The notes under the pieces: model-generated
The model's database searches: none
Seen by the model: the letters and a program-made list of their open reading frames with translations, nothing else
Told to the model about the DNA's origin: nothing
NCBI GenBank assembly: GCA_001657385.1
Contig: LYSZ01000005.1
Span: 1 to 64,000 of the forward strand
Direction of reading: 5' to 3'
DNA from: Parvularcula sp. BBD 1991-13
GTDB taxonomy: Bacteria > Pseudomonadota > Alphaproteobacteria > Caulobacterales > Parvularculaceae
Length of the DNA stretch: 64,000 nt
Program-made: the position numbers and the translations under genes
Shown: one piece after another, positions 2,875-31,072 of the stretch
Position numbering within the stretch: position 1 is the first letter of the stretch
Layout: each line of letters opens with the position of its first letter

Positions 2875-3834
2875 ATGACCGATGTCGTCATGAATGCAAG
2901 ACTGGGGTCTTCAATGTCCGGACACAGCGGGGCTGAAGATAATGCGAAAAGCGCCGGCGCCGCGAAGCGCCGCGTCATCGAGGAGCTGTCGCCGAGCCTG
3001 CTGACGACGCCGGTGATTTTCGCCTCGCCCCATTCCGGGCGGGACTATCCCCAGGACCTCCTGCGTCACTCGCGCCTGGACCAGCACGCCCTGCGCCAGT
3101 CCGAGGACAGCTATGTCGATCTCCTGTTCGACGAGGCGCCGCGGTTCGGCGCGCCGCTGCTGCGCGCGCTGTTTCCCCGGGCTTATGTCGACGTGAACCG
3201 CGCCCGGGACGAACTGGACCCGCGCATGTTCGCCGACACTCTGCCGAAAGGCGCCGACACGCGCTCCAGCCGGGTGATCGCCGGGCTCGGCGTCATCCCG
3301 CGCATCGTCGCGGACGGCCAGGACATCTACGGGCGCAAGCTCTATTATCTGGATGCGCGCCGGCGGTTGTCGGCCTATTACGACCCCTACCATCAGGCGC
3401 TGTCGAAACTCATCGAGACGGCCCGGCGGCGTTTCGGCGGGGCCATCGTCTTCGACTGTCATTCCATGCCGTCTGCCGGGGGTGCGCCCATGAGGGCGGG
3501 GGAGCGGCGTATCGATTTCGTACTCGGCGACCGGTTTGGCTCGTCCTGCGCCCCGTCGATCACCCTGCTCGCCGAGCAGACCCTCGCCGGGATGGATTAC
3601 GAGGTGGCGCGCAACACGCCCTATGCGGGCGGTTACGTCGCTTCCGCCTACGGCCGGCCGAAAAACGGCGTGCACGTCCTGCAGATCGAAATCAACAGGG
3701 CGCTATATCTCGACGAGCGCCGCATCGCGCGCACGGACGGTTTCGATCGTTTGCGCGAGAGCATGTTGATTTTGATCGAAAAATTGTCTGCGTTGCGTTT
3801 AGACCACTTGTGGACGCCGCAGGCTGCGGAGTAA
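2875..3834 (+). CDS. N-formylglutamate amidohydrolase family protein
   Basis: 319 residues, near the usual family length. Family signatures seen in order: FASPHSGRDYP, QSEDSYVDLLFDEAP, YVDVNRARDELDPRMF, VFDCHSMPS, DFVLGDRFGSSC and LQIEINRALYLDE. His and Glu/Asp residues in HSG, SEDSYVD, DCHSMP and EINR fit a Zn-dependent hydrolase fold. In histidine degradation such enzymes convert N-formylglutamate to glutamate and formate, but this stand-alone copy is not beside hut genes, so the physiological substrate is uncertain. The first ~40 residues are poorly conserved-looking and internal ATGs at 2890 and 2914 are possible starts. Confidence 0.85.
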   Translation: MTDVVMNARLGSSMSGHSGAEDNAKSAGAAKRRVIEELSPSLLTTPVIFASPHSGRDYPQDLLRHSRLDQHALRQSEDSYVDLLFDEAPRFGAPLLRALFPRAYVDVNRARDELDPRMFADTLPKGADTRSSRVIAGLGVIPRIVADGQDIYGRKLYYLDARRRLSAYYDPYHQALSKLIETARRRFGGAIVFDCHSMPSAGGAPMRAGERRIDFVLGDRFGSSCAPSITLLAEQTLAGMDYEVARNTPYAGGYVASAYGRPKNGVHVLQIEINRALYLDERRIARTDGFDRLRESMLILIEKLSALRLDHLWTPQAAE

Positions 3835-3844
3835 TATCACGCAC

Positions 3845-3927
3845 AAAAAAAAGCCGCGGGACGTACCCGCGGCCAAGTCATAGGGAGGAAACGCCCAAAA
3901 ATGGGCAGCAGCGTCAACGACGCCGCA
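3845..3927 (-). ncRNA. Candidate trans-acting small RNA with anti-Shine-Dalgarno motif (alpha-r14/CcsR-like)
   Basis: On the minus strand, ~83 nt fold into three stem-loops: an 8-bp stem GCGGCGTC/GACGCTGC with loop GTT (3908-3926), a short stem GCCCA/TGGGC (about 3892-3906), and a strong terminator GCCGCGGG/CCCGCGGC with loop TACGT (3853-3873) followed by eight T (3845-3852). Between stems 2 and 3 lies unpaired GTTTCCTCCCTATGA, which is complementary to an AGGGAGGAAA-type ribosome binding site. That architecture, anti-SD between hairpins and a terminator, is what I know of the alphaproteobacterial alpha-r14/CcsR (Cuckoo) small RNAs. A promoter is placed exactly to start transcription at about 3926-3927. 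No ORF of note lies within. Family membership is by memory, not by covariance model. Confidence 0.65.
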
Positions 3928-3932
3928 CATAA

Positions 3933-3961
3933 ACCATAGACCCCTCGATGCTGCGTCGCAA
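3933..3961 (-). promoter_or_regulatory. Sigma70-type promoter of the small RNA
   Basis: Reading the minus strand: TTGCGA (3956-3961), exactly 17 bases, then TATGGT (3933-3938). The predicted start, 6-7 bases on, is the first base of stem-loop 1 of the small RNA. The -35 element lies inside the inverted repeat 3947-3984. Confidence 0.5.
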
Positions 3962-3984
3962 TAATTTTTTTGCAGCGCAGCATC
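3947..3984. repeat. Imperfect inverted repeat over the small RNA -35 region
   Basis: Arms GATGCTGCGTCGCAA (3947-3961) and TTGCAGCGCAGCATC (3970-3984) are near-perfect reverse complements separated by an AT-rich spacer. The arms overlap the -35 hexamer of the small RNA, a position suited to a repressor or activator site. TGC-N6-GCA half-sites resemble those I recall for the PHB regulator PhaR, but this is a weak match. Confidence 0.5.
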
Positions 3985-4127
3985 TTTTTTTGGGCGTCAA
4001 GGCTGTTTTTTCCCCGGTTGCCGCCCTCTTTTTAGTCCGGAAACCGAGACTATTTGTGCTTTCAACGGCTTTGCAGTAGGCCAGCGGCAATGCGCCGTAT
4101 CGCGGCCATCATTTCGGACAACTGGAC

Positions 4128-5300
4128 ATGCACGATCAGGCTTCACCGTCGGAGAAGAAAAAAAGCGCCCTGCGCCGCCTCGGCTCCGGCGTTGGTAGGC
4201 TGACAAAGCCAAGGAAACGTTTTGACATGCCGAACGGAGACAGCGGCCTGAAAATCGTCATCGCCACCGACGCCTGGAAACCGCAGCTTAACGGGGTGGT
4301 GCGCACGCTCGACACTCTCGGCCGCATCCTGACCGATTTCGGCAATGAGGTGCTCTATATCACGCCGAACGAGTTCAAGTCCGTGCCGTTGCCGTCCTAT
4401 CCGGAAATCCGCCTGTCGCTGATGCCGAACCGGAAGGTCGCCAAGACCATTAACGAGTTCAAGCCGGACGCCATCCATATCGCCACCGAGGGGCCGATCG
4501 GGCGCGCCGCCCGGCGCTTTTGCAAGCGGCGCGGCTATCCCTTCACCACCAGTTTTCACACCCGCTTCGCCGAATACGCCAATGAACGCTGGAAGGTGCC
4601 GACGACGTGGGGCTACGCGGTCCTGAAGGATTTTCACAAGGACGGCGAGACCATGATGGTTGCAACGCCAGGCCTGGTCGAGGAACTGGGCGGGCGCGGT
4701 TTCCAGAACATGAAGCTGTGGGCGCGCGGGGTCGATCTGGAGCAGTTCGTTCCCGGCGACCGCTCGCCCCTGGACCAGTATGCGCGCCCGATTTTCCTCT
4801 ATGTCGGCCGGCTTGCGGTGGAAAAGAGCATCGAGGATTTCGTCGAGCTTGACCTTCCGGGCACGAAGATACTGGTCGGCGACGGGCCGCAGCGCGCCGA
4901 GCTGGAAGAAAAATACCCCGATGCGGTGTTTGTCGGCCCGAAATACGGCGACGACCTGACGCGGTATTATCAGGCCTCTGACGTTTTCGTCTTTCCGTCC
5001 CGCACCGATACGTTCGGCCTCGTCAATGTCGAGGCGCTCGCCTGCGGCGTCCCGGTCGCCGCCTATCCCGTGCGCGGGCCGCTGGAAATCCTCAACGGCG
5101 CGCCGCCCGAATGCGGCGCCATGAACGAGGATCTGAAAGCCGCCTGCCTGGCCGCCTATGAGCACGGCGACCGGGACGCCTGCCGCGCCTGGGCGGAAAA
5201 CTTCTCATGGGAGGCGGCGTCGCGGCAGTTCATCGCCAATCTTGAGATCCCCGGCTTCGATGAGGAGTTCTGGCTGCGCTCGGCGAAAATGATCGACTGA
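4128..5300 (+). CDS. GT4-family glycosyltransferase (GDP-mannose-dependent alpha-mannosyltransferase-like)
   Basis: 390 residues from ATG 4128; conserved sequence starts at the internal Met at 4227 (MPNGDSGLKIVIATDAW), so a 357-residue form is possible. GT-B architecture: N-terminal acceptor domain with TDAWKPQLNGVVRTL and SFHTRFAEYANER, C-terminal nucleotide-sugar domain with FLYVGRLAVEKSIEDF, VGDGPQRAELE and VFPSRTDTFGLVNVEALACG, where Asp stands at the first position of the usual E-x7-E pair, as is common in the SqdX/MgtA-like subgroup. Such enzymes glycosylate diacylglycerol, phosphatidylinositol or related lipids at the cytoplasmic membrane face. Monocistronic by position; donor and acceptor are not resolvable from sequence. 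Confidence 0.82.
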   Translation: MHDQASPSEKKKSALRRLGSGVGRLTKPRKRFDMPNGDSGLKIVIATDAWKPQLNGVVRTLDTLGRILTDFGNEVLYITPNEFKSVPLPSYPEIRLSLMPNRKVAKTINEFKPDAIHIATEGPIGRAARRFCKRRGYPFTTSFHTRFAEYANERWKVPTTWGYAVLKDFHKDGETMMVATPGLVEELGGRGFQNMKLWARGVDLEQFVPGDRSPLDQYARPIFLYVGRLAVEKSIEDFVELDLPGTKILVGDGPQRAELEEKYPDAVFVGPKYGDDLTRYYQASDVFVFPSRTDTFGLVNVEALACGVPVAAYPVRGPLEILNGAPPECGAMNEDLKAACLAAYEHGDRDACRAWAENFSWEAASRQFIANLEIPGFDEEFWLRSAKMID

Positions 5301-30791: not shown

Positions 30792-30831
30792 GACTGGCGG
30801 TCGCAAGAAAGATTTGCTAGATGCGGCCGGT

Positions 30832-31072
30832 CCCCAAGCGGGAGAGATTCGGACCGTCGGTCGACAGCGTCGAGCGACGACGGGCCGAGCGCCGAAGGAG
30901 CAACCGCCCCGGAAACTCTCAGGCAAATGGACCGCAAGGGGGAGACGAAAGGCTGGAAAGCGGATGGCCGCAAGGCCCTCCCGCCGAAGGAGTAAGCGGG
31001 CGGATGCGCGTTTTCGGACACGGCGCATGACCCGTGAAATCTCTCAGGCGCCCATGACAGCCGGGGCGGCCG
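30832..31072 (+). promoter_or_regulatory. Tandem glycine riboswitch
   Basis: Two aptamers are visible. Aptamer 1: CGGGAGAG near 30839, GCCGAAGGAGCAACC at 30891-30905, CCGGAAACTCTCAGGCAAAT at 30910-30929 and GACCGCAAGGGGGAGAC after it. Aptamer 2: CTGGAAAGCGG at 30953-30963, CCGCCGAAGGAGTAAGCGG at 30981-30999 and AATCTCTCAGGCGCCCATGA at 31038-31057. The CCGAAGGAG and CTCTCAGG blocks are the hallmark of gcvT-type aptamers. In the family, glycine binding turns on the glycine cleavage operon. The RNA ends ~37 bp before gcvT. Confidence 0.9.

Follow-up and report, generated by a model that had tools for sequence, protein, structure and literature searches.

Between two plus-strand genes, one for an N-formylglutamate amidohydrolase (FGase) and one for a glycosyltransferase, the window analysed here (the whole 64,000-nucleotide stretch of DNA from Parvularcula sp. 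BBD 1991-13) carries a minus-strand gene for a small RNA (sRNA) of about 82 nt, with its 5' end placed from the position of a presumed -10 element and its 3' end at the end of a T run (Table 1). The first-pass annotation had proposed such an sRNA-like gene in this position, with three stem-loops, a single-stranded anti-Shine-Dalgarno linker and an intrinsic terminator, and both its coordinates and its anatomy are borne out by the predicted fold and a terminator scan. The centroid structure of the minus strand from 3927 to 3837 contains three hairpins of 8, 6 and 9 bp and leaves TTTCCTCCCT unpaired; in the minimum-energy fold of the same 91-mer, nine of these ten bases stay free and the tenth is paired to the tail that follows the terminator. 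The fold energy of the sRNA, -42.2 kcal/mol, compares with a mean of -28.4 for dinucleotide shuffles (z -4.56), of which none in 200 is as stable. The consensus scan places the terminator stem and T run at 3874-3852, which is weak evidence taken alone, the region having two sites of this kind where 0.8 (sd 1.0) would be expected. A short plus-strand open reading frame following GGGAGGAAA (ATG near 3901) was also considered as a reading of the same bases. This reading was rejected on one relative (L036), which has no ATG there; the plus-strand string resembles a Shine-Dalgarno sequence simply by complementing the sRNA seed.

Table 1. Features of the small RNA locus and its neighbours, in window coordinates
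Feature	Position	Strand	Basis or remark
N-formylglutamate amidohydrolase (FGase) gene	2875..3834	+	PF05013, 249 bits; convergent with the sRNA
alpha-r8 (MmgR/SisA/suhB) small RNA	3845..3926	-	RF00519 match and fold
Intrinsic terminator, 9-bp stem into U8	3845..3874	-	fold, consensus scan, covariation
Unpaired UUUCCUCCCU seed (anti-Shine-Dalgarno)	3882..3891	-	fold prediction
Second hairpin, UGCCCAUUUUUGGGCG, 6 bp in centroid	3892..3907	-	near-invariant stem
5' hairpin, helix 1, 8 bp	3908..3926	-	fold; variable sequence with compensatory changes
Presumed promoter	3933..3961	-	-35 TTGCGA 3961-3956, -10 TATGGT 3938-3933, 17-nt spacer
PhaR/AniA operator-like site TGCGACGCAGCA	3949..3960	-	exact match to TGCRNYGCASMA; overlaps presumed -35
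PhaR/AniA operator-like site TGCAGCGCAGCA	3971..3982	+	exact match to TGCRNYGCASMA
Glycosyltransferase gene	4128..5300	+	PF13692, PF13439; far side of the sRNA promoter

The family to which this RNA belongs can be read from its match to the covariance model RF00519 (suhB/mmgR), found by cmscan of the window on the minus strand at 3913-3837. The match scores 62.4 bits against a gathering threshold of 41, has an E value of 1.8e-10 for the whole window and covers model positions 1-77 of 77; helix 1 is absent from the pairs of this Rfam model. It is the one RF00519 match in the organism's own genome (36 contigs, 98% complete), and a search of 100 genomes, this one among them, gave a match at E<=0.001 in 85 and one over the cut-off in 80. 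RNAs of the alpha-r8 family are described as having a Rho-independent terminator and a single-stranded 5'-UUUCCUCCCU-3' downstream of a weak hairpin, most species having one copy that adjoins an FGase gene, an arrangement that is usual rather than universal (PMC12559287). The window RNA combines the model score with a predicted single-stranded UUUCCUCCCU after a hairpin, a terminator and an FGase neighbour; judged by sequence and predicted fold, it is a clear member of alpha-r8, also called MmgR, SisA or suhB.

Comparison with the better known members of the family illustrates what is shared and what differs. MmgR of Sinorhizobium meliloti (alpha-r8, RF00519) has in common with it the covariance-model match, the single copy, UUUCCUCCCU, the terminator and a PhaR/AniA site in the promoter. 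SisA (alpha-R8) of Caulobacter crescentus, as described, likewise lies downstream of an FGase gene, bears the same 10-mer after a hairpin and ends in a terminator; the Caulobacter system is described as comprising four siblings (SisA-D) and the sponge CrfA, whereas the window genome has one RF00519 match. The anti-Shine-Dalgarno sRNAs AbcR1 and AbcR2 (alpha-r15) are described as partly homologous to SuhB but as 114-120 nt long with two CU-rich motifs (PMC7143759), whereas the model matched in the window is RF00519.

How far these features have been retained can be followed in two sets of relatives. A search with the RNA model supplied 29 relative loci, its best-scoring matches with the window's own locus excluded, and several are near-duplicates of loci in the second set, the named relatives, which were found by their FGase protein and are mostly labelled Marinicaulis or Parvularculaceae. 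That the core would be kept in relatives was a test set beforehand, and TTCCTCCC is present in 29 of the 29 model-found loci. After removal of duplicates, 43 loci remain: the window, 21 named and 21 of the 29 model-found. All 43 contain GGGCGTTTCCTCCC, with the TTCCTCCC part of the core conserved by construction since the loci were chosen to contain it, and 38 contain the 10-mer UUUCCUCCCU; the 43 are mutually related, so that counts across them are not independent. In their predicted folds, the core is fully unpaired in 36, and the 5' hairpin, second hairpin and terminator are present in 42, 42 and 43, respectively. Changes on both sides of a pair occur at 14 of the 20 pairs of the alignment, a level reached by none of 500 shuffles, and every measure of covariation falls when pairing partners are slid. 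These changes lie in helix 1 (8 of 8 pairs) and helix 3 (6 of 8 pairs), while helix 2 varies so little that it is uninformative on covariation. Helix 1 is paired in 70.9% of alignment cells; we think this incompleteness arises because its variable loop aligns poorly.

The named relatives also reveal loci at which the RNA is missing. Two of the 33 end at the FGase gene without downstream sequence, and among the other 31 the sRNA lies downstream of the FGase gene in 21. The exact core was not found within 700 nt downstream of FGase in nine, and a chance match in one more (L061) brings to ten the number without an sRNA there by the exact core. In five of the named loci (L044, L045, L047, L051 and L058; four labelled Marinicaulis and one Alphaproteobacteria), the FGase gene is followed by a glycosyltransferase frame, with a TTGCRGCGCAGCA stretch remaining and no sRNA core, and the sRNA has possibly been lost at the FGase locus in these. 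A different situation is seen in L063, labelled Robiginitomaculum, in which a terminator-like stem with an A run lies some 90-130 bases past the FGase match and adjoins a plus-strand G run that is C-rich on the other strand; this locus may hold an alpha-r8 copy with a changed core.

The sRNA would have a promoter to itself, and its intrinsic terminator would end transcription. Each of the two presumed hexamers agrees with the textbook consensus at 4 of 6 positions, and a sigma-70 consensus scan reported no minus-strand promoter. Nineteen of the 22 FGase-linked loci (the window and the 21 named relatives) were aligned here; in these, TTGC of the -35 is invariant, being also part of an overlapping palindrome, and conservation is 90% or more at two bases of the -10, its A and its last T. 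The promoter is weaker than was implied earlier, the scan being silent on it. An sRNA start near 3926 would fit the presumed -10.

Another feature of the promoter, the two operator-like palindromes, start 22 bp apart and follow a PhaR consensus of Bradyrhizobium that was deduced in PMC6201568 from footprints at three sites together with six other promoters. The 4.24-Mb genome has 62 exact boxes, compared with 42 matches to the reversed pattern, so that many single boxes must be due to chance. Only three places in the genome list have distinct exact palindromes whose starts lie within 70 bp: the sRNA promoter, C21:701938-701999 in front of a phasin gene, and C21:198595-198674. At the last of these (L108), three exact PhaR-type matches fall at two palindromes, upstream of a small open reading frame with a signal-peptide-like start.

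Across the 43 promoters, boxes were recounted upstream of the presumed transcript only; in an earlier count the stretches had reached about 15 bases into the sRNA, with a mononucleotide-shuffle control that held the palindrome core in 3.4%. An exact box is present in 18 of the 43 promoters, compared with 3 of 4000 stretches drawn at random from these loci and 9 of 2150 dinucleotide shuffles, and a box with at most one mismatch in 39 (94 of 4000 and 134 of 2150, respectively). At least one loose core, YGCRNYGCR, occurs in 40 of 43 promoters (473 of 4000 stretches; 294 of 2150 shuffles), and at least two in 26 (44 of 4000; 19 of 2150). By neighbourhood, an exact box is present in nine of the 22 FGase-linked loci and one with at most one mismatch in all 22; for the 21 other loci the numbers are nine and 17. 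Two palindrome cores lie upstream in every FGase-linked locus but L053 (21 of 22), always at a spacing of 18-21 bp, and in 5 of the 21 others.

Precedent for such control comes from S. meliloti, in which mmgR is reviewed as repressed by AniA and induced by NtrC (PMC7143759), and in which a PhaR motif is listed in the mmgR promoter and purified His6-PhaR shifts that promoter DNA, an interaction classed as 'Efficient' (PMC12542648). Regulation of mmgR by PhaR is therefore already known in that organism, and the two-site layout is the addition here: one PhaR-type site is listed for mmgR, whereas the window has two, one of them overlapping the -35. From the sites and their conservation, control of the window sRNA by PhaR appears probable.

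A competing interpretation of the same palindromes is that they form a plus-strand terminator of the FGase gene rather than sites for a protein. In the window the pair can indeed fold into a single stem (-23.7 kcal/mol) with seven T after it. Such an arrangement is not conserved, as six or more T in the 12 bases after the pair are found in just 7 of the 21 loci that have a pair, and in some loci, such as L042 and L040, each box folds on itself and not with the other. With neither the T run nor the shared stem conserved, the palindromes were rejected as a conserved FGase terminator, and this interpretation is considered improbable.

Operators for PhaR are the preferred reading of the two palindromes, and the genome contains the components that this reading calls for. 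It encodes PhaR with both domains, three PhaC-type proteins (PHA synthases), four phasin matches and Hfq. PhaR is a regulator released from DNA once PHB granules form. It most likely sits on the two operators, over and upstream of the -35, and represses the sRNA, and we propose that the sRNA rises with polymer accumulation because PhaR would then be off the DNA; the promoter sites suggest a response of the sRNA to stored carbon polymer. Two of the four phasin genes are preceded by exact boxes, the second of these with one exact site (C5:356157); the stretch at the third phasin has no exact box, and none lies near the fourth. Around phaR and one phaC, the stretches inspected contain no box, even when one mismatch is allowed. 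Of the other two phaC genes, one has an exact box only within its frame, and one has two one-mismatch sites. A PhaR-type palindrome is also seen upstream of a gene for a P-II protein (PF00543) at L110 (G000:C20:95145-95159), a possible carbon-nitrogen link.

The mode of action is best approached through the sRNAs already studied. Those of alpha-r8 are thought to block the ribosome binding sites of mRNAs, and SisA represses an mRNA through the same 10-mer, with a point mutation in the sRNA abolishing repression in an E. coli reporter system carrying Caulobacter Hfq, as described in PMC12559287. On this precedent, the window RNA most likely binds Hfq, and its unpaired UUUCCUCCCU most likely pairs with the ribosome binding sites of several mRNAs, the translation of which would be lowered. 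That the RNA belongs to alpha-r8 and acts in trans through its seed can be held with high confidence, and the reading we favour as most likely is that of a PhaR-repressed, Hfq-dependent, trans-acting sRNA that would silence mRNAs at their ribosome binding sites.

Prediction of the individual targets is more difficult. The start region of the first phasin pairs with the seed at -8.9, a value that 40 of the 47 window open reading frames equal or exceed in strength; the second pairs at -3.1 or -9.7 depending on the start chosen, the third of the four at -6.4, and that of phaR at -11.3 against a background median of -11.6, a background that takes the best of up to six starts per frame and is favoured by it. 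Phasin and phaR start regions were accordingly rejected as direct pairing targets, and the phasin link proposed in Sinorhizobium for MmgR is not reproduced by pairing in the window genome, in which the phasin start regions pair poorly with the seed. Strings of GGGAGGAAA are found 39 times in the genome against 11 for the reversed control; among the 30 of these 39 sites that were examined, six come before a start codon with an open frame, though some of these frames are probably spurious. Two genes, one of the acetyl-CoA synthetase type (-20.0 kcal/mol) and one for an Nramp transporter (-23.1), have an exact 9-mer complement of the seed just before their starts, the best pairing among the 47 window frames being -15.9; these two genes were picked for their complement and not independently, and as candidate targets they are only a lead. 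At the former gene (L137, G000:C21:704033), which lies about 2.5 kb from a phasin gene, GGGAGGAAA, the complement of nine seed bases, directly precedes the ATG.

The tail-to-tail arrangement with the FGase gene raises the further issue of a mainly cis-acting role, in which the sRNA would be antisense to the convergent FGase mRNA at its 3' end. In the window the FGase stop lies about 10 nt from the sRNA 3' end, which leaves no room for a separate FGase terminator, and at its 3' end the FGase mRNA probably crosses the sRNA in antisense. The convergence is moreover widespread, as tblastn finds FGase in 25 of the 29 model-found relatives, convergent with the sRNA in all 25. Both observations would suit a cis-acting RNA, but the four remaining relatives (L004, L010, L015 and L021) have no FGase within the stretch examined, and of 22 loci, three have 118-179 nt between FGase stop and core where the other 19 have 46-74 nt, leaving room in those three for an FGase terminator. 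Further against it, the seed is conserved, whereas the 5' stem varies freely with compensatory changes, as expected of a structured trans-acting RNA, and the published action of alpha-r8, as described, is in trans. Action mainly in cis is thus very unlikely, and a trans-acting RNA remains the preferred reading. A little less remote, yet still improbable, is the idea that the tail-to-tail pairing is functional in another way, with the 3' end of the FGase mRNA, which would carry a perfect complement of the seed, titrating the sRNA in the manner of the sponge CrfA. Breakdown of formylglutamate and histidine would in that case relieve silencing, PhaR at the two operators would set the supply of the sRNA by stored polymer, and nitrogen as well as carbon status would be sensed at a single locus.

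The assignment made in the first-pass annotation, to the alpha-r14/CcsR (Cuckoo) sRNAs, has hardly any probability left. Three hairpins and an anti-Shine-Dalgarno stretch are indeed present, as is a sub-threshold likeness to the CCUCCC-bearing sRNAs SorY and SorX (20.3 and 20.2 bits vs 111 and 46.6), but the covariance-model check for alpha-r14/Cuckoo gave a full-length match to RF00519 instead; cmscan gave no alpha-r14 match in the window at gathering scores nor in 3700-4130 at E up to 10, and a genome search with ar14 (RF02344) gave zero matches, though its controls were also silent. The alpha-r14 RNAs are described as three hairpins each with CCUCCUCCC (PMC10746234), whereas the window sRNA has a single TTTCCTCCCT, in the linker. 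CcsR RNAs are described as co-transcribed with a DUF1127 gene (PMC10253847); no DUF1127 match was found in the six neighbouring genes or the three longest minus-strand open reading frames at the locus (48-71 aa). Thus NfeR1 (alpha-r14) and CcsR resemble the window RNA in being of the anti-Shine-Dalgarno type, NfeR1 also in its three hairpins, and differ from it, NfeR1 in its motif-bearing hairpins and its described independence of Hfq (PMC10746234), CcsR in its tie to DUF1127. On model scans, motif layout and the lacking DUF1127 match, alpha-r14/CcsR membership was rejected: the window sRNA is an ordinary, well-preserved member of alpha-r8 that had been mis-assigned, and its putatively polymer-sensing control region is coherent.

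The analysis assigns the locus to the alpha-r8 family. It further shows the PhaR/AniA operator known from mmgR of S. meliloti in two copies at the FGase-linked sRNA of Marinicaulis-like bacteria, and polymer-sensing control of the sRNA thereby becomes testable outside the rhizobia. The question with real novelty is why the sRNA is convergent with FGase in every relative in which FGase was found. Elsewhere in the window, a glycine riboswitch aptamer is matched at 30829-30944 on the plus strand (56.2 bits), and a tRNA gene lies at 2100-2171 on the minus strand.
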